64,000 nucleotides of DNA from IMG/VR virus record IMGVR_UViG_3300032562_000003, positions 186,001 to 250,000 of that record; one strand, given 5' to 3'. Origin of the DNA: a virus. Shown one piece after another: positions 3,337 to 17,011 of the stretch. A model generated the notes under the pieces. It had not been told where the DNA came from. It ran no database searches and saw only the letters and a program-made list of their open reading frames with translations. Within the stretch, counting starts at the first letter, position 1. Each line of letters starts with the position of its first letter. A program made the position numbers and the translations under genes.

Positions 3337-4189
3337 AATAGCAGTGTGTCTGAGCGGAGAGCCTCGCACATGGAACCATTGTAGCGAGAATATACTTGAA
3401 TTTTTCAAGAGTGATATCCATGACATAAAGTTTTTTGGACACACGTGGACAGACAGTGAATACACGAAAGAACATAGATTTTATGGTATAGAGAAATGTG
3501 AATCTTATCCTAAGGACGAGCTATACCAGAATATGATATCAGCTATAAACTACGAAAAATTATTGATCGAAGATAAAACTGTAATCGATGTCACTCCGAT
3601 ACCAAGCGTATTAAGTTTTGATGAATGTACTTTTGGTATGAAAGTAGCAGCTAACCTAGCTAAACCTACAGTATACGTTCACATGAGCTACAGTATCATG
3701 CAGGCTAACTGGCTCAAAACTATGTATGAAATAGAAAATGACATGCGTTTTGATCTAGTTGTCAGAGCAAGGCATGATAGTTATTATACACCGGGTACAA
3801 AGTTTGAGGATTACTTACCAGGTAGAATAGAACCAACTGCAATATATGGTTCGACAAATACATTCCCGATGGAATATTGGCAGAATCATTTTACTGATGT
3901 GTTATTCTTCGGTTCAAGTAGGGTGATGAATACTGTTTGTGATTTTTATAGATACTATAGTACAGGTAAATTCTGGGAATTATTAGATGCTAACTGGAAT
4001 GATCCTTATATAAAAATATGCGGATATAATGTCTGCTTATATAAATGGCTTATGCTAAAGAATATAAGAGTACAAGAAACAAACCTAATATTTAACACTT
4101 ATATATTTAGGAAAAAGGCAGCAGAATTGTATAGTTTACCGCAAGACGCAGATGCAATACTACAAGTAGAAAGAAATCTATTCAGATGA
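3323..4189 (+). CDS. glycosyltransferase-like protein, copy 2 of 3
   Basis: A 288-residue paralogue of the preceding gene: AVCLSGEPRTWNHC at the N-terminus and WLKTMYEIENDMRFDLVVRARHD in the middle align with copy 1 and with the broken copy 3. It overlaps the upstream gene by 14 bp, and its stop overlaps the ATG of the next gene (ATGA), so the three are translationally coupled. The sequences have diverged strongly, which suggests old duplications with different acceptor specificities rather than recent amplification. No signal peptide or membrane segment is seen, so the protein is presumably cytoplasmic. Confidence 0.6.
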   Translation: MKSYKIAVCLSGEPRTWNHCSENILEFFKSDIHDIKFFGHTWTDSEYTKEHRFYGIEKCESYPKDELYQNMISAINYEKLLIEDKTVIDVTPIPSVLSFDECTFGMKVAANLAKPTVYVHMSYSIMQANWLKTMYEIENDMRFDLVVRARHDSYYTPGTKFEDYLPGRIEPTAIYGSTNTFPMEYWQNHFTDVLFFGSSRVMNTVCDFYRYYSTGKFWELLDANWNDPYIKICGYNVCLYKWLMLKNIRVQETNLIFNTYIFRKKAAELYSLPQDADAILQVERNLFR

Positions 4190-5010
4190 AGATTGCTGTG
4201 TGTTTCAGTGGATTGATCAGAACAGGGATAAACTGTTATGTTAACATCACCCGTTACTTAGGAGATATGCTGCCGGATTGTGATTTTTTCCTGCACACCT
4301 GGGATTATGAAACTAATAAACCGTTTGCTAGAACACATTGGAATAATATTCGATTTATTCAACGCCCGGATGAAGCCTTATCTCAAGAAAAATTACAGAA
4401 ATTTATCGAATTATATAATCCGATAAGATACAAAGTAGATAGTTATTCAGAGTTCATGAATAGTCATATGACTAATAACCAATTTCCTATAGTATGGCAT
4501 ACTCTTTGTAGAAGCTTTGAGCTTTAAAGGCAGTACGAGATAGAGAACAATTTTAAATATGATGTAGTCATAAAGATCCGTCCTGATGTTATATTTCCTA
4601 CAGCTAAAAACTTTGGAAGTGAGCTATCTAACATAGACTTATCCAAATCGACGATTTATAGTGACCCGCACTGTGATAATATATTAGCTGATGTTTTTTG
4701 GGTTACAAACAGCAATGTTGCTGATATTATGATTGATCTGGTCAAAGAGCCTGGACACTCAGTGCATGATTCATCTGCTGCATTAAACAGATTTTTACAA
4801 AATAGGGGAATTATAAATCAACCATTGAGCAAAACTAATTTAGTTTGTTACACGATATATCGTTATGAGTCTTATATGTTTGATCCTATGACAAATTTTC
4901 GTGAGTGTTTTATGAATGATTTAATACATTATAGTTCTATATCAGAAGAAGAAATATATAAGGTTTTTCGGGATAACAATGAGAATAAATTATACGGAAC
5001 AATAAGATGA
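4186..5010 (+). pseudogene. glycosyltransferase-like protein, copy 3 of 3, interrupted by in-frame TAA
   Basis: The reading frame opens with KIAVCFSGLIRTG and runs 113 codons to a TAA at 4525-4527. The same frame then stays open to 5010. Right after the stop it reads RQYEIENNFKYDVVIKIRPD, which aligns with KRQYEIEHNFEYDVVFRMRTD of copy 1 and WLKTMYEIENDMRFDLVV of copy 2. The stop sits exactly where both paralogues have Lys (AAA), so a single A-to-T change explains it. The downstream part has codon use and length expected for a real gene, so the lesion is recent or is a sequencing error. Readthrough is possible but nothing in the sequence demands it. An ATG at 4729 could restart translation. 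Confidence 0.75.
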
Positions 5011-5801
5011 TTGATTTTTTATATGCTAACGGATGTAGCTGGACAGCAGGAAACGGTATCGATGATGATCCGAGCTTATCAAACATACCATTAATAGAAA
5101 GATGGAACTATTTTTTGAAATGTGCCTGGCCGTCGGTAGTCGCAGAAAAGTTTGGAGTTGATCATATAAATGAAGCTCTTGGTGCAGGAAGCAATGCACG
5201 TATGGTTAGAACTACATGTGACTTTCTACGAAAGTATCCTAAAGAAAAATATAGTTCATTAGTAGTTATGTTAGGCTGGACAACTGTAGATAGGAGTGAA
5301 GTCTATTTACACGAAGGACAGAAAGAGGGGTGGTGTATGTTTAATGCTACGCAGCCGGTAAGTTCGCATGATGTACTCTTTAGACCTGACTTTAGTAATG
5401 ATTATTTAAAACTTATTGATGACTGGCAGAAAGACTATATTTTGAATGTATATTCACTTCGTGCCAATTACATCAGATTTTTTCAAGAAATGTATATTAT
5501 GAAAAATCTATTAGAAAACTTAGGTGTAAAGTACTTGTTTTTTAGTAGTCTGCCGTGGCGAACAGTATGGTTACCGGAATATAAAAAAATTAATATATCA
5601 AAACAATTTGAACAAGAAATTTCAGTATTGCAGAAACCATGCATTCTGAATACACGTTCATGTGATGAATCATTAAATGTGATGAGTCTTTTTTGCGTAG
5701 CTAATCAAATTCCAATGGCTGCTGATCATCATACTATGATAGAAGGTCACAGAAGATGGGCAGAGCATTTATATCAGGAGTTTAATAACATCTATGAATA
5801 A
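5007..5801 (+). CDS. SGNH-hydrolase-like protein, copy 1 of 3
   Basis: A 264-residue protein starting in the stop of the broken transferase (ATGA). It begins MIDFLYANGCSWTAG, an SGNH/GDSL block-I-like segment, followed by ALGAGSNARMVRTT, which matches the block containing the oxyanion Gly and the Asn. A late HHTMIEGHRRWAEHL segment could supply the catalytic His. SGNH hydrolases remove acyl groups from sugars or peptidoglycan, and in capsule loci related proteins may instead transfer acyl groups. It is the first of three adjacent relatives. Esterase or acyltransferase activity is inferred; the acceptor is unknown. Confidence 0.55.
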   Translation: MIDFLYANGCSWTAGNGIDDDPSLSNIPLIERWNYFLKCAWPSVVAEKFGVDHINEALGAGSNARMVRTTCDFLRKYPKEKYSSLVVMLGWTTVDRSEVYLHEGQKEGWCMFNATQPVSSHDVLFRPDFSNDYLKLIDDWQKDYILNVYSLRANYIRFFQEMYIMKNLLENLGVKYLFFSSLPWRTVWLPEYKKINISKQFEQEISVLQKPCILNTRSCDESLNVMSLFCVANQIPMAADHHTMIEGHRRWAEHLYQEFNNIYE

Positions 5802-6597
5802 AGAAAAGATCGTGGTGTGCGGTGATAGTTTCAATGTCGGCATTGGACTAGTTGATATGGAAAAACAACGGTATGGTCAACTTGTCGCAGATAAGTTAGA
5901 ATATGATTTGGTCGTATTAGCTAGGGGCAGTGCGTCTAATTATGCAGTATTCCTCCAAGGTGTATATGCTAGTAAGATGCTGTCCAAACCAAAGTGCGTT
6001 ATTTTATGTGTAACTAGTTATGATAGGATCGAATGGTTAGAAGACGAATTTCAAAAGCATATAACATTAGACCTATCACATTTGAACTACCATCAGTATC
6101 CGCCGCATCATCATGCACAACCGCATCATGATCGACCGTTAGATTTTTATCTAAAAGATGATGCAAGCTATAATCCAAAGTTGCTCACTGAGCAGGTCGG
6201 GGCGATACCTGATTATCTACAGACATTAGAAAAACAAAAGAAAATGCCTAGCGATTATTACCAACGTCTACATTCACAATCACCTGAAAAACTAAAAATG
6301 TTATTAGAACATTATCTAACTGTTTGGTCTAACAATAATATCAAATCTGATTATGATAGAGGGTTGATACTGTCTGCATACACTAGAATAACAAACAGTG
6401 ATATACATTGCTTAGTGCTTGCAAGTGACGATAAGTTCGATGATCTGATACCTAAAAAAGATTTGATACATCATAATTGGGGAGAGCTGACTCTACAATA
6501 TCCTGATACTATAGGAAGTCAGCATGCAGATTATCCAGCACATGAATATACTGCACAGTTGATAATTGAAAGGTTATTAGAGAATGGCTACACCTGA
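5794..6597 (+). CDS. SGNH-hydrolase-like protein, copy 2 of 3
   Basis: A 267-residue protein opening MNKEKIVVCGDSFNVGIGL, where GDSF is a clear GDSL block I. LARGSASNYAVF is the Gly/Asn block. A C-terminal HADYPAHEYTAQLI resembles the D-x-x-H block V that carries the catalytic Asp and His. A His-rich stretch near residue 105 (HHHAQPHHD) is unusual and may be a linker or bind metal. It overlaps the previous gene by 8 bp and the next by 14 bp. No signal peptide is visible, so it probably acts on a cytoplasmic sugar intermediate or assembles onto the virion. Confidence 0.6.
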   Translation: MNKEKIVVCGDSFNVGIGLVDMEKQRYGQLVADKLEYDLVVLARGSASNYAVFLQGVYASKMLSKPKCVILCVTSYDRIEWLEDEFQKHITLDLSHLNYHQYPPHHHAQPHHDRPLDFYLKDDASYNPKLLTEQVGAIPDYLQTLEKQKKMPSDYYQRLHSQSPEKLKMLLEHYLTVWSNNNIKSDYDRGLILSAYTRITNSDIHCLVLASDDKFDDLIPKKDLIHHNWGELTLQYPDTIGSQHADYPAHEYTAQLIIERLLENGYT

Positions 6598-7465
6598 TGA
6601 ATTGATTTTGATAACGAACGGTGATAGCTGGACGTTCGGGTGTGAGATAGTAGATCCTGCTTTAGTACAAAAACATCCAGGTAATCATCTGACTACTATC
6701 GACTATCTTCCTAAGAATGATAGTTATAGATTACCGCGGATATGGCCAACTAAGCTAGCAGAACTATTGAGATGTCGTGTGATAAACCTAGCTGAACCCG
6801 GAGATGATAATGCTAGTATCTTAGCTAGGACGCAAGAATATGTTTTGCACCTACTAAACCAAGGTATAAACCCGGATCGTCTGTTTATCATAGTAGGTTG
6901 GACTACGCCGGAACGCAGAGATTTTTGGTACAAGAGTGATGATGACAAAGAAAGCTACAAGTTTAGGCTCAATCCGCACATGACTGATCATAAACAAAAA
7001 CCATTAGCCAATCTTACTAAAACATATGTATTGAATTTTTGGAATCCTGAAGAATACATTACTAGGTATATTACTACAATATTGAACTTCCAGAATTTTT
7101 GCCTAACGAATAAAATCAGATTCTTAAACTTCAATGCTTTTTATAGATTGAATCAGATTAATATCGATCAGTGGCAAGACATCAATGTTGAAGAACAGAT
7201 AAACTCTTTAGGTTTAGGTAATATCAGTATATCAGATGATGATGTCCGTATCATTCATAAAATAAACTATAACACTATATGGAAAACGATAGATAGTATT
7301 AGGTACTATAACAAAGACATCACTAATAATTCATTCAAGACATATGTAGATGAAAACTGCGGAGAAGCTGGATATACTGGCTGGCATCCAAATGAACTAG
7401 GTCATACTGTTTGGGCTGATGAATTATTAAAATACATACAAGATCATGAGTTACTAAATATTTGA
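6584..7465 (+). CDS. SGNH-hydrolase-like protein, copy 3 of 3
   Basis: A 293-residue protein and the best preserved of the three SGNH relatives: ITNGDSWTFGCE (block I), LAEPGDDNASI (Gly/Asn block) and, near the C-terminus, GWHPNELGHTVWADEL, a block V with an aligned His. All elements expected for a Ser-His hydrolase are visible. It overlaps the preceding gene and stops 1 bp before the cupin gene. Three consecutive diverged copies suggest distinct O-acyl positions or a multi-subunit enzyme; that is inference. Confidence 0.65.
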   Translation: MATPDELILITNGDSWTFGCEIVDPALVQKHPGNHLTTIDYLPKNDSYRLPRIWPTKLAELLRCRVINLAEPGDDNASILARTQEYVLHLLNQGINPDRLFIIVGWTTPERRDFWYKSDDDKESYKFRLNPHMTDHKQKPLANLTKTYVLNFWNPEEYITRYITTILNFQNFCLTNKIRFLNFNAFYRLNQINIDQWQDINVEEQINSLGLGNISISDDDVRIIHKINYNTIWKTIDSIRYYNKDITNNSFKTYVDENCGEAGYTGWHPNELGHTVWADELLKYIQDHELLNI

Positions 7466-7466
7466 C

Positions 7467-7916
7467 ATGAGTATAAATGAAATCAAAACTGTAGTCAAGC
7501 ACTGGGGTCATGAAGTCTGGATAGCAGATGGTGTCAGGACACCATATGCACTAAAGCGTATATTCTTCAAGGCTGGCAATAGAACAAGCTTGCAAGTACA
7601 TCAACAAAAATTCGAAACCAACTATGTTTTTTCCGGTACAGGAACATTGTACATAAGCAAAGAAAAATTTGATGTAGAACATTTTCTATCTAACCCGATG
7701 ACCGCAGAAGAAGTTTCTGAATACGAATCAACGTTTGATATCATTCGACTTGAACCTGGAGTATCATTCGACGTTCATCCGGGCTATGTTCACCGTGTCG
7801 TTGCTATTACAGACCTTGAATTCTTTGAAGCAAGTACAACAGAACTTGATGATGTGATAAGGCTTCAGGATGATCAAAATAGAACGCACGGTAGAATACA
7901 GCATGAGCACCGTTAA
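7467..7916 (+). CDS. cupin, mannose-6-phosphate isomerase type II-like
   Basis: A 149-residue single-domain cupin. The first metal motif (RTSLQVHQQKFETNYVFSG) and the second (GVSFDVHPGYVHRVVAI), followed by LEFFEASTTELDDVIRLQDD, closely match the C-terminal isomerase domain of bifunctional mannose-1-phosphate guanylyltransferase/phosphomannose isomerases. In that family the domain interconverts fructose-6-phosphate and mannose-6-phosphate. Here the domain stands alone and the guanylyltransferase half is absent; the next gene carries a different nucleotidyltransferase. The canonical HxH is replaced by H-Q-Q, so metal binding may be altered. Role: hexose-phosphate isomerisation or binding in the glycan pathway (inferred). 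Confidence 0.7.
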   Translation: MSINEIKTVVKHWGHEVWIADGVRTPYALKRIFFKAGNRTSLQVHQQKFETNYVFSGTGTLYISKEKFDVEHFLSNPMTAEEVSEYESTFDIIRLEPGVSFDVHPGYVHRVVAITDLEFFEASTTELDDVIRLQDDQNRTHGRIQHEHR

Positions 7917-9462
7917 CACAGTAGTTATACCTACAGCCGGTATAGGCTCTAGGATGGGCAATCTGACTAAGAATCTAAACAAAGCACTGTTGCCCTACAA
8001 GAATAAACCGTTTCTATCACACATAATAGATCAGTTTCCCAAAGACACGCACTTCATCATTCCTGTTGGTTATCTGAGCCAGCAGGTTAAAGACTATTGC
8101 ACAGTAGCACATGATGATGTAAATATCACATTTGTTGATATCGATGACTATACCTCTAGTCGGAGTGGTACTGCCTACACACTGAAAAAATGTACTAACC
8201 TATTAGATAAACCATTCTGGTACATACCGTGTGACACTTATTTCGATACAGACTTGATATCAGAGATCAAAGATACAAGTAAAAACTACTATTTCACTAA
8301 ACAGGTAAGTGAAGATTTATCTGACCTATACACTATGTTCAAATTAGACAACTTGACGATCACTGATATGGTGTTTAAAGAACACTGCCCTGCTGATTAT
8401 GTTGCTTTTACTGGCGTGATGTATCTAGGTGATCATGTAGATTTCATCACCCGGTTAACCGAACTAAACAATAATGAGTTTATCTTTGTTATAGAAAAAG
8501 GTGAGTCTATTGTTAACCTAGACAGTTGGATCGATTTTGGCAATATAGAGAGTTATGCGAATGCAGTTAATAGCAGCCAAAAATTTGACTTTAGTAAAGA
8601 AGATGAGATCACCTACATAACCGATTCTAAAGTTATCAAATGGTGGGCGAATAAAACTATCACTGAGAACAAATATAAACGAACGCTAGATCATGATGGA
8701 ATATATCCCGACAATTGCAAGATTGTTGGCAACTATCTAGCATACGATTGGTATTCAGGAAAAACATTATACCAACACAATGATGTTGAGCATTTCAATA
8801 GTCTATTGAATTGGTTAGACAATAATGTCTGGCACCGGGCTGATGTTGACATCAAAGATGAATGCATAGAATTTTATAAAAATAAGACATTAGGTAGGAT
8901 CGAAAAATACTTGACCAAGTATAACACACAAGAAAAGGTTAGCAGTATTAACGGTGTTGACGTAAAGGACTATGCATATTACCTAAACAACATCGACTAT
9001 TCTTATCTTACTGAGACAGTGCAAGCATCTTATATACACGGTGATTTGCAGTTTGATAATATCGTAATAGGTAAAGACTTCAAGCTCATCGATTGGCGCC
9101 CTGATTTTGCAGGTAATACCAACACCGGCGACATATATTATGACTTAGCAAAACTCGCCGGCGGATTCATCATAAATTATAGTAAGATCAAAGAGAACAA
9201 CTTCAAGGTTGATATTAAAAACAATCATGTTACTTTAGAGATTCCTTATATAGATAACCACGAACAGTATTTCACCCTATTAAAAAAGTTTGTGAATGAA
9301 AAACAGTTAGAGTGGAAGAAAGTGGAATTATTGATTCCTATTATATTTTGGAATATGTCTCCATTACATACTAGTCCCTTCGACAAATTTCTCTGGTACT
9401 TAGGTATAAAATTGTTCCAAGAGTATGAAACTAAATACTCTAGCAATGAAGCAGTTTTATAG
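7903..9462 (+). CDS. sugar/alcohol-phosphate nucleotidyltransferase fused to a choline-kinase-like domain
   Basis: About 519 residues from ATG 7903 (an upstream in-frame ATG at 7870 is deep in the cupin gene). Residues 1-230 are a GT-A nucleotidyltransferase: VVIPTAGIGSRMGNLTKNLNKAL is the signature G-x-G-x-R...K loop, and IPCDTYFD supplies the metal Asp. Residues from about 240 form an aminoglycoside-phosphotransferase/LicA-like kinase domain with YIHGDLQFDNIVI (Brenner-type catalytic loop) and LIDWRPDF (DxD/DFG equivalent). The family combination is LicC-LicA-like: phosphorylate a small alcohol or sugar, then activate it as a CDP/NDP derivative. Which substrate is used cannot be read from the sequence. 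It overlaps both neighbours. Confidence 0.75.
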   Translation: MSTVNTVVIPTAGIGSRMGNLTKNLNKALLPYKNKPFLSHIIDQFPKDTHFIIPVGYLSQQVKDYCTVAHDDVNITFVDIDDYTSSRSGTAYTLKKCTNLLDKPFWYIPCDTYFDTDLISEIKDTSKNYYFTKQVSEDLSDLYTMFKLDNLTITDMVFKEHCPADYVAFTGVMYLGDHVDFITRLTELNNNEFIFVIEKGESIVNLDSWIDFGNIESYANAVNSSQKFDFSKEDEITYITDSKVIKWWANKTITENKYKRTLDHDGIYPDNCKIVGNYLAYDWYSGKTLYQHNDVEHFNSLLNWLDNNVWHRADVDIKDECIEFYKNKTLGRIEKYLTKYNTQEKVSSINGVDVKDYAYYLNNIDYSYLTETVQASYIHGDLQFDNIVIGKDFKLIDWRPDFAGNTNTGDIYYDLAKLAGGFIINYSKIKENNFKVDIKNNHVTLEIPYIDNHEQYFTLLKKFVNEKQLEWKKVELLIPIIFWNMSPLHTSPFDKFLWYLGIKLFQEYETKYSSNEAVL

Positions 9463-10183
9463 TCTAAGTCAATATCCTGGCAAAACCGGAACTTATTACT
9501 ACAATTTGTTTTTTGATAAGTTTGGCATTGACGCAACCTATACGGCTTTAGCTTGTAATCCAAACGAGTTCGAAGATACTTTCAAGCACTTAACAAGCGA
9601 TCATACTACATATGGTATTAGCGTGAGTATGCCATATAAGAACACTGTAACTTATCTGTGTGATAATCTAGATAGTCTAGCACATAAGTATGGTATTTGC
9701 AATACCATAGCTGTGAATAATGGACATACCGTTGGCTACAATTGTGACATATACGGATTGATGGGTATCATATCTGAGATTTCAATCGATGATAAGATTT
9801 TGATACTAGGTGACGGATCGATAGGACAGATGTTCTATCATTATCTCATCGAAAACGATTATATGAATGTCAATATGTATAGCAGAAAAAACAACAACTG
9901 GCATGACAGACATGAACCGGCTGACATTATAATCAATTGTACTAGTTTAGGGACGAGTGAAGAGGCATCACCATTGCTATCAGTTCCTGATAAAACAAGA
10001 TGCGTAATTGATCTAGCACTACGTAAAACTATTTTATATGAACAAAGTTTGCAGAGTCAAGTAAAGTATATAAGTGGTCTGAGTTTTTATGCCCATCAAT
10101 TTCTAAAGCAGTTTGAGATATATACTGGTATGCATATCACGATTGATCAATTTAACGAGGCTACAGGAAATGATTATAGATAA
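9446..10183 (+). CDS. shikimate-dehydrogenase-like (AroE-like) protein
   Basis: About 245 residues from ATG 9446 (alternative 9425). The substrate domain has YGISVSMPYKNTV, where AroE has NVTxPxK with the catalytic Lys; ICNTIAVNNGHTVGYNCDIYGL matches AroE GAxNTxxxxxGxxxGxNTDxxG, keeping the Asn and the catalytic Asp. ILILGDGSIGQMFYHYL is the dinucleotide-binding loop, in GDGSIGQ form. In the family the enzyme reduces a 3-dehydro-cyclitol with NADPH. Here it lies inside a sugar cassette without other shikimate genes, so it probably acts on a different keto-sugar or cyclitol. The length is slightly below the usual 270. Confidence 0.75.
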   Translation: MKQFYSLSQYPGKTGTYYYNLFFDKFGIDATYTALACNPNEFEDTFKHLTSDHTTYGISVSMPYKNTVTYLCDNLDSLAHKYGICNTIAVNNGHTVGYNCDIYGLMGIISEISIDDKILILGDGSIGQMFYHYLIENDYMNVNMYSRKNNNWHDRHEPADIIINCTSLGTSEEASPLLSVPDKTRCVIDLALRKTILYEQSLQSQVKYISGLSFYAHQFLKQFEIYTGMHITIDQFNEATGNDYR

Positions 10184-10661
10184 ACTCATTATCGATGTTG
10201 ATGGTGTATTAACATCCGGACACATGCTGTACAACAATTTAGGCAAAACTTTTAAAGTTTTCGGACCGCATGACAGAGATGGTCTCAAGCTGATCAGTAA
10301 GTATATAAATGATATCACTTTTATTACTGCGGATAAGACTGGATTTGACATCACTTACGCAAGAATTGTCACTGATTGGAAGTATCGGGATGATCAGTTA
10401 GTCTTAGTTCCGGAAGAATCTAGACTAGAATGGTTTATAGAAAATTGTAATTTCAACACAACCGCATATATCGCAGATGGATATCATGATGCTGTTATAT
10501 TAAAAAAAGTAGCTCTAGGCATCGCACCTAAGAGTGCTAGAATTGAAGCGAGAACTAGTGCTAAGTATGTGACACCGAGTGATGCTGCTAGCGGCGCAGT
10601 TCTTGATGCATGTTTATATATTGAAAAGATGATCAAAGGTTGGTGGTGGCGCCAACTATAA
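10170..10661 (+). CDS. KdsC-like HAD phosphatase
   Basis: A 163-residue protein. Start ATG 10170 is preceded by AGGAAA and overlaps the upstream stop; an earlier ATG at 10113 lies inside the upstream gene. HAD motif I is IIDVDGVLTSG at the extreme N-terminus, followed by KVFGPHDRDGLKLI, matching the KdsC-type RDGxG segment. FITADKTGFDIT is motif II-like and YIADGYHDAVILK is motif IV. YVTPSDAASGAVLDAC resembles the KdsC C-terminus. KdsC removes phosphate from 3-deoxy-octulosonate-8-phosphate; the family also handles nonulosonates and other sugar acids. Likely role: dephosphorylation of a 2-keto-sugar acid in this pathway (inferred). Confidence 0.75.
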   Translation: MIIDKLIIDVDGVLTSGHMLYNNLGKTFKVFGPHDRDGLKLISKYINDITFITADKTGFDITYARIVTDWKYRDDQLVLVPEESRLEWFIENCNFNTTAYIADGYHDAVILKKVALGIAPKSARIEARTSAKYVTPSDAASGAVLDACLYIEKMIKGWWWRQL

Positions 10662-10681
10662 TCTATATGAAAGAATGATCG

Positions 10682-11686
10682 ATGGACTTGAAACGATTTA
10701 ATTTAGGTATAGGTCCGATGAGCAAAGAAATAGTTGAGCTATGTCTCAGCTATAGTCATCAGAACGACTATCCACTAATGATTATTGCTAGTCGCAATCA
10801 AGTAGACTATGATAGTGGCTATGCTATGAACACTAAAGAACTATCTGACCTAGTATTCAATAGTGAGTATTATGACCGAGATAGAATATTGCTGTGTAGA
10901 GACCACTGCGGACCTTACTTTAGTGATGCAGACAAAAATCTAGACCTCGAAACGGTAATAGAACGATGCATGAATACGATCAAAGCTGATGTCGATGCAA
11001 AATTCTACCTAATTCATATTGACGTGAGCAGAGTCGAGACTGACAAACAACGTGCTGTTGCAGAAAAGTTGTTTTCTTATGCTATGGCATTGAATCCGAA
11101 AATTATGTTTGAATTCGGTACCGAAGACAACACTGGTAATACGACAGAAACCTTGAACATGTTGAATATGCAACTAGAGTATGTCAAGCCTTGGCAAAAT
11201 AATATATGTTATATTGTTTCCCAGACTGGAAGCTTGACTAAACAAACTCAAGTAGGTACGTTCAATGTAGAACAAACACAAAAACTGATAAATGTAATAC
11301 ATCAGAATGGTTACATGTTCAAAGAACACAACGCTGACTACCTTACAGTTGACCAAGTAAAGTTACGTAAAAATACAGGAGTGGATGCATTAAATATTGC
11401 TCCGCAACTCGGTACTGTAGCTAGTAGTGTGTTATATACATTGGGTTTGGGTACAAAAGAATTAACTAAGTTCATTGATGTTGTGATAGAATCAGGATAT
11501 TATAAAAAATGGTGTACGGTTGATGTAGATAATGACAAAGACCGCTTTATCAGTTCAGCACACTATCTATTCGAACATCCATGTTGTAAAGAATTAAAAC
11601 AAGTAATAGATATGCGAGAATATAAAGCACTATTACAAGACCGATTGTTTTCTATTTTAGATGAATATAGATTAGGATACCATTAA
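10682..11686 (+). CDS. GatZ/KbaZ-like aldolase-fold protein
   Basis: A 334-residue TIM-barrel-type protein. IIASRNQVDYDSGYAMN resembles the IEATSNQVNQxGGYTGM segment, and LLCRDHCGPYF resembles the GGDHLGPN segment, of the D-tagatose-1,6-bisphosphate aldolase subunit family GatZ/KbaZ. In enteric bacteria that subunit supports a catalytic GatY partner. No GatY homologue is seen here, so this may be a stand-alone aldolase or synthase in sugar-acid biosynthesis. It follows the KdsC-like phosphatase by 20 bp. I infer an aldol-type C-C step acting with the HAD phosphatase. Confidence 0.6.
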   Translation: MDLKRFNLGIGPMSKEIVELCLSYSHQNDYPLMIIASRNQVDYDSGYAMNTKELSDLVFNSEYYDRDRILLCRDHCGPYFSDADKNLDLETVIERCMNTIKADVDAKFYLIHIDVSRVETDKQRAVAEKLFSYAMALNPKIMFEFGTEDNTGNTTETLNMLNMQLEYVKPWQNNICYIVSQTGSLTKQTQVGTFNVEQTQKLINVIHQNGYMFKEHNADYLTVDQVKLRKNTGVDALNIAPQLGTVASSVLYTLGLGTKELTKFIDVVIESGYYKKWCTVDVDNDKDRFISSAHYLFEHPCCKELKQVIDMREYKALLQDRLFSILDEYRLGYH

Positions 11687-11817: not shown

Positions 11818-13299
11818 ATGAATTATGTAGGTGTCAGTTGCGGGTTTCACGACGCTGGATTGAGTGTCATTGATGATGCTGGCAATATCCTATACGCCGG
11901 CCACAGTGAACGATACAGTAAGAAGAAGCATGACGCTGATCTTTGTTTAGGCTTATTAAAAGATGCCCACAAATATATAGATGGGCATTATGAGCTTCAT
12001 TATTATGAGAAGCCTTGGTTAAAGGTAATCCGCCAGCTCAGAGCTGGACAGAAGTTAGGACCTTTCTCTGCAAAGGATGTCATCGGTAAAAACATGATGG
12101 TTCGTTTTAGCCATGACGGAGAAGTGAAAACACACAATCATCACTTATCTCATGCTGCTGCTGGTTTTCAAACTAGTCCATTTGACCATGCTACTGTAGT
12201 CATTATTGATGCTATCGGCGAGTTAGATACGATTACTATCTGGGATGCGTATTATGATGATAACGGTAGAGCCGTATATAAGAGGCTTTGGGGAAAGCAA
12301 TATCCAGATTCTATCGGTTTATTCTATTCTGCTATGACTGCGAAAGTAGGACTGAAGCCATTAGATGAAGAATATATTCTTATGGGAATGGCTGCTTACG
12401 GTAAACCTATTCATGTTAATACGATTCAAAAAGCGTTGATTCATAATAGTGGTACATTATCTTTCAAAGAAAATCTACATACCGGGGTGAGAGATGATTT
12501 CCTCAAAGATGCTGATAATATGGATATAGCTTCATCTACTCAAGAACTTACTGAAAGTTTGATACACCATGTCATAGCAAAAGCTATTAATATCGGTAAA
12601 AGTCATAATCTTGTTTTTGGTGGAGGAGTCGCACTCAACTGTGCAGCAAATCGTAATCTAGGCGGATACTTCGATAACATCTGGATCATGCCTAATCCGG
12701 GTGATGCAGGAAACTCATTGGGTGCTGCTGCATTAGGTTATGGAAAACGAGTAAATTGGGTCGATGCCTTTTTAGGATATAATATAAAAGGCAAATATCC
12801 TATTAACAATGTAATTAACCAATTGTATACTAAGAAGATGGTTGGTGTTGCTAGCGGACGAGCCGAATTCGGTCCTAGAGCATTAGGCAATCGTTCACTA
12901 TTAGCAGATCCACGCGGCCCTGATATAAAGGATACAGTAAATGAAATCAAGCGAAGACAGCAGTTCAGACCCTTTGCGCCGGTCATTCTGGAGGAACTAT
13001 GTGGCGATTATTTTAATATGCCTTGCGGTTGGAACAACAGTAGGTATATGCAAGTCATCGCTCCTTGTAGGGCTCCTGACTTATTTCCTGCTATCGTTCA
13101 CGCTGACGGGACTTCTCGTGTACAGACAGTACCGAAAGACGGTTCGGGAATCAGAAGACTCTTAGAACGTTGGTATAATGAGACACGCTGTCCAATGCTA
13201 CTTAATACATCCCTAAATATTAGAGGTGAGCCTATGGTAAATGACCGGGCAGATGCTGATCGGTTCCAGCTACTATATGGGGTAAAAGTCTGCTCTTAA
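11818..13299 (+). CDS. carbamoyltransferase (NodU/CmcH/TobZ family)
   Basis: A 493-residue protein. The N-terminal Kae1-like domain shows VGVSCGFHDAGLSVI and NHHLSHAAAGF (metal-binding His pair), then VIIDAIGELD and VFGGGVALNCAANR. The C-terminal YrdC-like part has ASGRAEFGPRALGNRSLLADPR, the hallmark of this family, and PMLLNTSLNIRGEPMV. These enzymes transfer a carbamoyl group from carbamoyl phosphate, through an adenylate, to a hydroxyl of a sugar or antibiotic. It is somewhat shorter than typical 550-600-residue relatives but all key blocks are present. It probably carbamoylates the product of this cassette; decorating a nucleotide or DNA base is an alternative. Confidence 0.85.
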   Translation: MNYVGVSCGFHDAGLSVIDDAGNILYAGHSERYSKKKHDADLCLGLLKDAHKYIDGHYELHYYEKPWLKVIRQLRAGQKLGPFSAKDVIGKNMMVRFSHDGEVKTHNHHLSHAAAGFQTSPFDHATVVIIDAIGELDTITIWDAYYDDNGRAVYKRLWGKQYPDSIGLFYSAMTAKVGLKPLDEEYILMGMAAYGKPIHVNTIQKALIHNSGTLSFKENLHTGVRDDFLKDADNMDIASSTQELTESLIHHVIAKAINIGKSHNLVFGGGVALNCAANRNLGGYFDNIWIMPNPGDAGNSLGAAALGYGKRVNWVDAFLGYNIKGKYPINNVINQLYTKKMVGVASGRAEFGPRALGNRSLLADPRGPDIKDTVNEIKRRQQFRPFAPVILEELCGDYFNMPCGWNNSRYMQVIAPCRAPDLFPAIVHADGTSRVQTVPKDGSGIRRLLERWYNETRCPMLLNTSLNIRGEPMVNDRADADRFQLLYGVKVCS

Positions 13300-14062: not shown

Positions 14063-16603
14063 ATGGCAATTAGAGAAGTATTCTACTCCGGTTCCAAACC
14101 CAATGTCCATCCAAGAGAAAAATTTGCTGAATCACTAGAAGATGCTAGGAATCAGTGTACGACTGAGCATTTTTGGATTATCAACGAGTTTTGTGACTAC
14201 CGTAAATTTGATTGGGACTTTGATTTCGAGCTATTACCTGACGAAGATATTTGGGCAGAGGCACACGACAATGTATGGCCTAGCCAACATCAAAAAGATA
14301 GTGGTACATGGCTGTGTCCTAAGGTAGCCGGTGATTATACTATCTATCGAACCGATGTTCCCCCAATTCAACGCAAGAATGAAATCAATGATTTTTGGAT
14401 TATAGATCCGGCCCTGGATAAATCTAGGTTTGACTTTTCTTGGCACCCAGATCCTACGTCTCCTCCATACATATATCAATTCGGTACTCTGCTCGATGAA
14501 AACGACGGACCCAGATACGTCACTCCCTATAATGACGGAACCATAGTACATCTAGAACGCAAGGAGGTCATACTAGAAGACCTAGAGTTTTCGAAGTACT
14601 ACATCACTACTACATTGGAAGATTTAATCAACGACCACACTAATGAAATCTTTTGGGCATTGAATCCTGAAATTGATTATTCTGGGTTTGACTTTAAATG
14701 GGTCCCTGACAGTAAGAACGTATATCACATAAATGCATTTGGTACGAAAGACAATATAAACTCCCAGACTTACTTTGTTAATGGTAAGATGTGGGCACGT
14801 GGTTATCGGGACATTAACTACATTGAGGATAAGGTACTAGATGTACGAACCAAGATCGATATTTTCTTTGTCGATAAAGGAAATCCTCAGGCACAAGAAC
14901 GCTTTCAGCAATTATCTGAGCGTATGGGCAACGTAACTAAAACTAGATATCTGAACAGCTGGGTTGACACGATCAATCGTTGTGTGACTAAATCAACTAC
15001 CAATCTATGTTGGATTCTCAATAGTGAATTAGACTATTCGTCATTTGAGTTTGATTTCTATCCTAGCCCATGGCAGATGAACTTAGTTCATGTGTTTGGA
15101 ACTCAGTGGTCACACTGGGGAACAACCTTTATGGTTAACAAAAATACATTTGCTGATGATACCAAATATATAAAAGTCATTGAGCATTTGCCTAATATAA
15201 ATTTTGTAAAACGATCACCTGCTAAGGCAGTTGATTGTCTTTATGCTATAGTAATCATCGACCATGGTAACGGTGTTGATACAGTAAAAGATGATCTACT
15301 CAGTAAAAATCTGAGCGAAAGAAACATCATTGCTGTGAAATATGATACCAATTATCTAAAAACATTCAAGGAGGTACTCAGTAAATTAGATGTCAATCGT
15401 GAACATTATGTATGGATTTGTAGTAGCGTGTGTGATTATAGCAGATTTGATTTTAGCTATATCTGCGATCCGTACACCAAAGAACAACTCCACGTCTTCC
15501 CGAGCGGTAATCAAAAATTAGGAGACACGTTTCTAGTAAACGTCAACAAGCTGCGCAAATTGATAGCAGATATGCATCGTCTAGAAGACTATGAAAAGAT
15601 TAATTATAATCAACATCAAGTTGTCTCAAGATTGATGACACCCACAACTATCGAAGGTGCATATTTTCCAAATGAAACACATATGGATTATGCTAGAAAT
15701 TATGAATGGGATTTTCCTTATGTAACTCTAGTAACTGAAGAAAACTGGGATATGGATCCTGAAATTGATCCCGAACCTATGTGTCTTTGGTCACCCGAAC
15801 AGAAAGCAATCATTATTTCTAGTACAGGTGCAACTAGAGTTACGATTCCTCGCGAGGCTAAAAACTATGTCAAAAGTGAACTGTATGATTACCCGTATAT
15901 AAAGCGAGCAAAAAAACTAACCAAATCTAAACCGATGGACATAGTGTATCTCAGTAACGGTGAAGCCGGGGCCGAAAAAAACTGGGAGCATCTACTTCAA
16001 ATTACTAAAAACATACCAAATAGGGTAGTCAGAGTGGATGGAGTTAATGGTCGAGTTGCTGCATATCATGCTGCTGCCGAAGCCAGCGAGACACCATGGT
16101 TATTTACGGTATTCGCTAAGTTACACATCAATTCTAATTTTGATTGGTCATGGCAACCAGATCGAATGCAAGCACCTAAGCATTATATCTTTCATGCGAA
16201 GAATCCGGTCAATGGATTGATCTACGGTCACCAAGCGATGATCGCGTATAATAAGCAATTAGTGCTAGAGAATGACGGTTATGGACTAGACTTTACGTTG
16301 GATGACCTGCACGAAGTTGTTCCACTCATGTCCGGTACTGCAAACTATAACACTGATCCGTTCTCTACTTGGCGTACCGCATTCCGTGAAGTGGTCAAAT
16401 TGAAGGCCGAAGATACCGACATTGCCCGAGAGCGATTAGAAGCTTGGCTTACTAAAGCTGAAGGTGATTTTGCAGAATATAGCATCAAGGGTGCAAAAGA
16501 CGCAGAAGCCTATTACGATGAAGTTGATGGCGATTTTGATGCACTGCGATTGAGCTACGAGTGGGAATGGTTAAAATCACGCTTCGTGCAAAAATACGGT
16601 TGA
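14063..16603 (+). CDS. large modular repeat protein with C-terminal glycosyltransferase-like domain
   Basis: An 846-residue protein built from about six copies of a roughly 100-130-residue module. Each module contains a W/F-rich core such as FWALNPEIDYSGFDFKW, then a P-D segment, then an xHVFGT-like segment and TFxVN. The last module (from about residue 620) reads DIVYLSNGEAGAEKNWEHL and RVDGVNGRVAAYHAAAEAS and is homologous to the protein at 209-1150. There is no signal peptide or membrane segment. The late promoter in front makes a virion or late-stage role likely: perhaps a tail-associated sugar-binding or sugar-transfer protein. I recall proteins of this type in marine T4-like phages without an assigned function. 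Confidence 0.65.
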   Translation: MAIREVFYSGSKPNVHPREKFAESLEDARNQCTTEHFWIINEFCDYRKFDWDFDFELLPDEDIWAEAHDNVWPSQHQKDSGTWLCPKVAGDYTIYRTDVPPIQRKNEINDFWIIDPALDKSRFDFSWHPDPTSPPYIYQFGTLLDENDGPRYVTPYNDGTIVHLERKEVILEDLEFSKYYITTTLEDLINDHTNEIFWALNPEIDYSGFDFKWVPDSKNVYHINAFGTKDNINSQTYFVNGKMWARGYRDINYIEDKVLDVRTKIDIFFVDKGNPQAQERFQQLSERMGNVTKTRYLNSWVDTINRCVTKSTTNLCWILNSELDYSSFEFDFYPSPWQMNLVHVFGTQWSHWGTTFMVNKNTFADDTKYIKVIEHLPNINFVKRSPAKAVDCLYAIVIIDHGNGVDTVKDDLLSKNLSERNIIAVKYDTNYLKTFKEVLSKLDVNREHYVWICSSVCDYSRFDFSYICDPYTKEQLHVFPSGNQKLGDTFLVNVNKLRKLIADMHRLEDYEKINYNQHQVVSRLMTPTTIEGAYFPNETHMDYARNYEWDFPYVTLVTEENWDMDPEIDPEPMCLWSPEQKAIIISSTGATRVTIPREAKNYVKSELYDYPYIKRAKKLTKSKPMDIVYLSNGEAGAEKNWEHLLQITKNIPNRVVRVDGVNGRVAAYHAAAEASETPWLFTVFAKLHINSNFDWSWQPDRMQAPKHYIFHAKNPVNGLIYGHQAMIAYNKQLVLENDGYGLDFTLDDLHEVVPLMSGTANYNTDPFSTWRTAFREVVKLKAEDTDIARERLEAWLTKAEGDFAEYSIKGAKDAEAYYDEVDGDFDALRLSYEWEWLKSRFVQKYG

Positions 16604-16628
16604 CATGCAATGTCATATATGATTAAAT
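16600..16628 (+). promoter_or_regulatory. sigma70-like promoter before tmRNA
   Basis: TTGACA at 16600-16605 begins inside the last codons of the repeat-protein gene; 17 bp later stands TTAAAT (16623-16628). The -35 is perfect and the -10 moderate. It is placed to transcribe the tmRNA gene; ATTAAATA at the same place could also serve as a weak late promoter. Confidence 0.5.
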
Positions 16629-16698
16629 AGTATTTGTTCGTTGATACGGACTTAAAACCGGGGAAGACAGGGGTGCGATTCCCCTCGCCTCCACCAGT

Positions 16699-16781
16699 AA
16701 ACACACGATAACAGGACGCTGGCTCTGTGAAGCGGGATATCGGGGTAGCTGCCGAGAAGACGGGGAGAGCATCGTGTGTTT
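16699..16781 (+). other. intervening-segment hairpin of permuted tmRNA
   Basis: An 11-bp perfect inverted repeat (AAACACACGAT at 16699-16709 and ATCGTGTGTTT at 16771-16781) lies just outside the acceptor-stem strands. It would extend the acceptor stem in the precursor and present the segment for removal, which is how two-piece tmRNAs mature. Confidence 0.75.
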
Positions 16782-16872
16782 TCTTATGGGGGCGTATAGT
16801 ATCGATTCACGGCTAGTAGGAAAGTGGAGAACACGGTAAGAAACGACCGTCAATCAGTTCAAATTACTAAAT

Positions 16873-16917
16873 GCAAACGAAAATGATGCATATGAAGGCC
16901 TTGCGTTAGCCGCATAA
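16873..16917 (+). other. tmRNA proteolysis tag reading frame
   Basis: The resume codon GCA is followed by codons for NENDAYEGLALAA and TAA. The C-terminal LALAA is the ClpXP-type degron ending typical of alphaproteobacterial tags. The inner residues NENDAYEG are close to the common ANDN...AEG type but not identical to any that I recall. Confidence 0.85.
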
Positions 16918-17005
16918 GTCTTTTGGGCTTTGCTAGTTGAGCCTCGAAACAGAATCAACTAGCACCTATAAAACCTTTAAATATGATATATCGTCCTATA
17001 GGTCA

Positions 17006-17011
17006 TAAATA
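17006..17011 (+). promoter_or_regulatory. late promoter core TAAATA (CATAAATA)
   Basis: CATAAATA at 17004-17011 lies 26 bp before the ATG of the secreted DUF6152-like gene. TCCTA at 16994-16998 can pair with TAGGA (17024-17028) in the ribosome site, a weak version of the late hairpin switch seen elsewhere in the window. Confidence 0.55.

Follow-up and report, generated by a model that had tools for sequence, protein, structure and literature searches.

The described systems that come closest to the locus studied here include two bacterial pathways. In Pseudomonas, MupP, AmgK and MurU form an anabolic route to UDP-N-acetylmuramic acid (UDP-MurNAc) (PMC5371407), and in Campylobacter jejuni HS:5 the CDP-6-D-glucitol pathway activates fructose-6-phosphate (F6P) and then reduces it (PMC10918830). 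We analyzed a cassette of five genes, encoding a cupin, a nucleotidyltransferase fused to a kinase (NTPK), an AroE-like reductase, a KdsC-like phosphatase and a GatZ-like protein, in a window of 64,000 nucleotides that corresponds to bases 186001-250000 of the 258,859-base virus record IMGVR_UViG_3300032562_000003. Judged from sequence, this is probably a horizontally distributed nucleotide-sugar cassette, carried by a jumbo tailed phage, whose product would be an unusual activated sugar for use in glycans under phage control. The reading is based on gene content, conservation, active-site residues, co-occurrence and exchange of parts, from which we infer substrate and product.

By its logic the cassette appears closest to MupP-AmgK-MurU, since both combine a HAD 6-phosphatase, a free-sugar kinase and a nucleotidyltransferase, by which phosphate would move from C6 to C1 before activation. 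In the Pseudomonas route, however, kinase and transferase are separate, the sugar is MurNAc and no GatZ-like, AroE-like or cupin gene takes part; the front end found here seems to be new. The C. jejuni route likewise leads from a keto-hexose phosphate, via a nucleotidyltransferase and an NADPH reductase, to an activated alditol for surface polysaccharide, but it consists of two enzymes, and kinase, phosphatase, GatZ-like and cupin steps are all absent. Scores against family models place the cassette outside the MupP-AmgK-MurU, tagatose, shikimate and Kdo pathways as these models define them; NTPK reaches 22 bits against the MurU model NF045761 (cut-off 250). Plain shikimate or tagatose catabolism was rejected. 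A first-pass annotation of the window had known no described pathway with this set, and we found none in the literature searched; a literature search for virus-encoded nucleotide-sugar pathways also found nothing.

The record encodes a terminase large subunit, a DnaB-like helicase and a phage single-stranded DNA-binding protein, and the locus therefore belongs to a large tailed phage, a carrier that the first-pass annotation had not recognised as a virus. Its five contiguous, partly overlapping genes and their families were confirmed as five plus-strand open reading frames, listed here with a frequent neighbour outside the core:

7467-7916, plus strand: cupin (149 aa), like ManC/type II phosphomannose isomerase (PF01050, conserved residues)
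7870-9462 (ATG 7903 equally possible), plus strand: NTPK, nucleotidyltransferase fused to an APH-type kinase (530 aa)
9425-10183 (ATG 9446 likely), plus strand: AroE-like NAD(P)-dependent reductase (252 aa; PF08501)
10170-10661 (from ATG), plus strand: KdsC-like HAD phosphatase (163 aa; TIGR01670)
10682-11686, plus strand: GatZ-like protein of class II aldolase fold (334 aa; PF08013)
11818-13299, plus strand: carbamoyltransferase of NodU/TobZ type, not core (PF16861, 158 bits)

Three of the junctions are short overlaps and the last, between the KdsC-like and GatZ-like genes, is a gap of 20 nt. Near-identical copies of the cassette are found in four other IMG/VR contigs, and all five genes occur in the same order in a relative with 73-83% protein identity. 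Against this relative the measurable ratios of nonsynonymous to synonymous substitution rates (dN/dS) lie at 0.03-0.09, dS itself being close to saturation or past it; the five frames are therefore genes under purifying selection.

The first-pass annotation had proposed a single functional cassette, and a search for co-occurrence across viruses and cells bore this out, as the families clearly recur together in loci of both kinds. Alignment-based scans of IMG/VR gave 357 stretches encoding a GatZ-like relative and 96 with the NTPK fusion; all viral counts are of contigs, near-duplicates among them, and not of independent events. Among the 51 GatZ-anchored loci whose upstream sequence extends to 5.5 kb or more, which form the testable set, NTPK was found in all 51, the cupin in 50, AroE in 39, the carbamoyltransferase in 30 and KdsC in 24, with all five families together in 11. 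The presence of NTPK beside GatZ in every testable locus excludes a chance grouping. In a wider viral set GatZ accompanied NTPK in 129 of 135 loci, and of these 129 the cupin was found in 116 and AroE in 51. The commonest viral orders are cupin-NTPK-(SnoaL-like)-AroE-GatZ and cupin-NTPK-AroE-KdsC-GatZ, and a broader group has cupin-NTPK-GatZ and a small HAD protein. The SnoaL/NTF2-like protein of about 112 aa (L025:8942-9280 and relatives) is a frequent member in viruses and marine bacteria. No viral locus contains both it and KdsC (naive P 2e-5, uncorrected for phylogeny), though in cells the two do occur together.

Other collections added little. A phage collection contained the module in a single marine virus, AG-345-E15 (MH319741), where a small HAD gene, cupin, NTPK and GatZ-like gene are contiguous as in our locus, but no AroE- or KdsC-like gene is present and the record is unannotated. 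Matches labelled as Listeria and Salmonella phages were set aside as apparent bacterial contigs; the one with a GatZ-like gene is a locus of phosphotransferase system (PTS) type (L016). The plasmid collection gave just one weak, partial NTPK match.

A scan of 84,980 species genomes showed two kinds of cellular GatZ-like loci. Those of Firmicutes and Pantoea (most of L205-L246) stand apart from NTPK, among neighbours judged PTS-like by size and position with L016 alone read in detail, and were excluded from the cassette counts. The other kind lies with NTPK and includes the complete five-gene set in Woesearchaeota, Pacearchaeota, Yonathbacteria, Buchananbacteria and Omnitrophota, groups that include members of the candidate phyla radiation (CPR). 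The genes stand in orders different from the viral ones, KdsC-AroE-NTPK-GatZ-cupin or AroE-KdsC-NTPK-GatZ-cupin, and two of these cassettes (L175 and L180) adjoin flippase-like membrane proteins. A partial set, KdsC-GatZ-(274/278 aa)-cupin-NTPK, was found in Prochlorococcus and Nitrotoga, and related partial sets in Pelagibacter. The full NTPK fusion is present in 5/279, 5/201, 7/380 and 7/398 genomes of four groups, each count including the genome on which the group was centred, and this patchiness is the pattern of surface-glycan genes.

Pairwise identities are correlated between cassette members (GatZ-NTPK r 0.85, GatZ-AroE 0.90, GatZ-KdsC 0.75), at values reached in 0 of 300 permutations, and 64 viral GatZ sequences form a clade (support 0.99). 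From this correlated divergence and this clade, the cassette has probably long been maintained in viruses. These data also bear on the idea that unrelated glycan genes were simply collected in a polysaccharide island of the phage and serve no common pathway. The region is indeed full of glycan-type genes, and loci differ in whether they have AroE, KdsC and the SnoaL-like gene, but the near-constant company of NTPK, cupin and GatZ, the correlated divergence and the shuffled yet complete sets in DPANN, CPR and Omnitrophota make this explanation highly improbable.

Support for a shared pathway also came from loci in which parts of the cassette are exchanged. In four cellular (L260, L284-L286) and two viral loci (L141, L150) NTPK stands with Rpe and a SIS protein and no GatZ is present; KdsC is found in five of the six, and L141 has a small HAD protein instead. 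In L285 these proteins exceed the NCBI cut-offs for ribulose-phosphate 3-epimerase (218.8 vs 212.6 bits) and 6-phospho-3-hexuloisomerase, HxlB (192.8 vs 160). Since GatZ and cupin can be replaced by Rpe and HxlB beside NTPK and a HAD phosphatase, the front ends are exchangeable and would act on ketose phosphates. The six loci with Rpe and an HxlB-like SIS protein amount to a second, likewise putative, sugar-activation cassette. The reductase varies as well. Of the loci with GatZ and NTPK, 51 of 129 in viruses and 9 of 39 in cells have AroE, which is thus optional rather than core. The GC-rich locus L291 was left unscored because the frames picked there were antisense. A short-chain dehydrogenase/reductase (SDR) occurs in 10 GatZ loci and never alongside AroE (P 0.13 for the cellular counts alone), which fits a reductase role shared by the two.

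Active sites, which the first-pass annotation had pointed to as a check, look intact: core catalytic residues are kept, and confident AlphaFold2 models were obtained for two proteins, AroE-like and GatZ-like. The GatZ-like protein scores 60.2 bits against PF08013 (GatZ_KbaZ-like; gathering cut-off 26.7) and only 50.3 bits against the NCBI equivalog TIGR02810, the tagatose-bisphosphate aldolase accessory subunit (cut-off 568.8). Its model (pLDDT 95) has 2fiq and 3txv as top PDB matches, followed by class II aldolases. Escherichia coli GatZ and KbaZ are reported to be C4 epimerases that convert F6P to tagatose-6-phosphate, with D87, H88, E171 and H257 proposed as the Asp and metal residues (PMC11907403). 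The equivalent D74, H75, E148 and H216 are constant in 137 viral relatives, so that fold, Asp and three metal ligands are shared with the E. coli proteins, whereas the viral protein is about 90 residues shorter and sits in a biosynthetic neighbourhood.

The same fold, with its metal-binding and Asp residues, could also belong to a true aldolase, condensing a ketone donor (triose phosphate or similar) with an aldehyde to give a new skeleton such as a heptulose or a branched ketose that is then dephosphorylated, reduced and activated. That three active-site positions of E. coli GatZ differ in the viral clade would suit such a change of reaction. We nevertheless regard it as unlikely, because the E. 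coli proteins are reported epimerases, no recurrent second gene that forms an aldehyde was noticed, and the replacement front end consists of an epimerase and an isomerase, neither of which builds skeletons. Where the first-pass annotation had the GatZ-like protein build a keto-sugar phosphate, "epimerise" may therefore be the better word.

The cupin lies exactly on the Pfam cut-off for PF01050 (MannoseP_isomer, 23.6 bits). Across 15 relatives Q43, H45, E50 and H109 are invariant, the C-terminus carries a DDVxRxxD motif, and the homologue from AG-345-E15 matches GMP_PMI (1.3e-31). From its likeness to the phosphomannose-isomerase domain of ManC its role is probably catalytic, and we regard it as a core member and a probable keto-aldo isomerase.

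In NTPK the transferase half matches TIGR03992 below cut-off (E 9e-18). G24, G26, R28, K38, D122 and D222 of the transferase are invariant, as is the kinase motif HGD...N...IDWR. By single-sequence search the best PDB match of the transferase half is the LicC structure 1jyk (E 2.7e-4), which would agree with a LicA/LicC-like kinase and cytidylyltransferase for choline, or another alcohol, placing phosphocholine on glycans. With a family profile, however, a sugar-1-phosphate nucleotidyltransferase tops the list and such enzymes dominate the matches, and the remaining genes belong to sugar and sugar-phosphate enzyme families, so that we give the choline route very little credence. The transferase domain is by sequence nearest to sugar-1-phosphate nucleotidyltransferases in general; the label "choline/LicCA" was thus too specific, and the CTP proposed with it has no support over other nucleoside triphosphates.

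The AroE-like protein scores 51.7 bits against PF08501 (Shikimate_dh_N; cut-off 27) and 100.6 bits against TIGR00507, below the cut-off of 200.2 that the cellular cassette AroE of L180 reaches (209.2 bits). Its model (pLDDT 94) matches shikimate dehydrogenases and 5-ketofructose reductase (7cok/7col), and the best match of the cellular cassette AroE is HI0607 (1npy), which has PSNFG at the site of the SxS motif. Viral AroE-like proteins share with HI0607-type proteins and 5-ketofructose reductase the shikimate dehydrogenase fold and the catalytic Lys and Asp (equivalents of K65 and D102, present in 30 of 30), but form a diverged set under the AroE cut-off. 5-Ketofructose reductase, of the shikimate-dehydrogenase family, reduces the ketohexose 5-ketofructose (PMC7954740), and sdhL adjoins the E. 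coli sorbose operon, a weak hint that such enzymes lie near ketohexose genes (PMC12817954). The second Ser of SxS is replaced by Gly in all 29 sequences covering the motif, in a PGxxG context.

The KdsC-like protein, searched with an in-frame start at 10158, matches TIGR01670 at 56.9 bits (E 2e-15; cut-off 106.95). All 73 relatives have the HAD motif DxDG, and all 68 that could be parsed have [ST][GA]D where solved relatives show [ST]GR; a literature search on KdsC specificity found nothing. The SxS motif of shikimate dehydrogenase holds shikimate, and its loss, like that of [ST]GR, is read here as lost recognition of a carboxylate. Since both enzymes lack residues typical of acidic-substrate enzymes, a neutral, non-carboxylated sugar is suggested. 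This does not favour a sialic-acid- or Kdo-like ulosonate pathway, in which a KdsC-family phosphatase, present here, acts before CMP activation. In the cassette we detected neither a KdsA/NeuB-type synthase nor a CMP-ulosonate synthetase; it moreover has a kinase, which ulosonate routes do not have, and we consider such a pathway most improbable.

For the nucleotide-sugar cassette we propose the following route. The GatZ-like protein, metal-dependent, would convert a common hexulose phosphate, probably F6P, to a rare epimer such as tagatose-6-phosphate by retro-aldol/aldol inversion at C4, and the ManC-like cupin would interconvert keto- and aldo-forms. The KdsC-like phosphatase would then strip the terminal phosphate and, where present, the AroE-like or SDR reductase could turn the keto sugar into a polyol. 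Finally, the kinase half of NTPK would phosphorylate the other end and the transferase half form a nucleoside diphosphate (NDP)-sugar or NDP-alditol. In CDP-6-glucitol formation reduction follows activation, and the last three reactions (reduction, phosphorylation, nucleotidyl transfer) may therefore occur in another order here. The first-pass scheme, from keto-sugar phosphate via phosphatase and reductase to kinase-nucleotidyltransferase, fits the component enzymes and is mostly right in outline; it did not see that AroE is optional and gave the cupin no role.

Several findings weigh against this route. The GatZ-like clade has S, I and N in place of C20, E44 and K279 of E. coli GatZ, and its reaction may therefore differ. 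Many viral loci with AroE have no phosphatase adjoining, the kinase half of NTPK matches Pfam APH weakly (E 0.003) and found no match in a PDB sequence search, and the cupin could be structural or another isomerase.

More tentatively, with the chances somewhat short of even, the loci may represent one nucleotide-sugar pathway that has not been described before, in which the front end (GatZ-like and cupin, or Rpe and HxlB) can be exchanged and the reductase (AroE-like or SDR) is optional, and which ends in an NDP-activated rare ketose, aldose or alditol and is common to tailed phages, DPANN, CPR and marine bacteria including Prochlorococcus and Pelagibacter. If so, a sugar building block would have a compact predicted biosynthesis encoded in abundant marine lineages and in hundreds of viral contigs, and the many GatZ-like "tagatose aldolase" genes of phages would be accounted for. 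A function open to testing would also follow for the NTPK fusion, the AroE-like enzymes and the GatZ-like clade, and the known repertoire of phages would extend beyond glycosyltransferases to an entire nucleotide-sugar pathway.

The surroundings of the cassette gave some further observations. Directly 5' of the cupin, window positions 5007-7465 encode three consecutive proteins, two of them DUF6071 (GDSL-like), and in other phages, too, the cassette follows a protein similar to the second. Further upstream, a 275-codon frame at 4186-5010, akin in sequence to the neighbouring frames at 2536 and 3323, is broken by an in-frame TAA (first base 4525); it is open in the near-identical contig L003 and split in L004 as in the window. 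Downstream, 14063-16603 encodes an 846-aa protein with repeated units, whose C-terminal domain resembles a 313-aa protein at 209-1150. A Pfam scan gave no match; a VDGDN stretch looks glycosyltransferase-like, and relatives come after the cassette in other phages. Finally, a permuted (two-piece) transfer-messenger RNA (tmRNA) with the tag ANENDAYEGLALAA lies at 16603-17008 and matches Rfam tmRNA_permuted and alpha_tmRNA, which suggests an alphaproteobacterial host.

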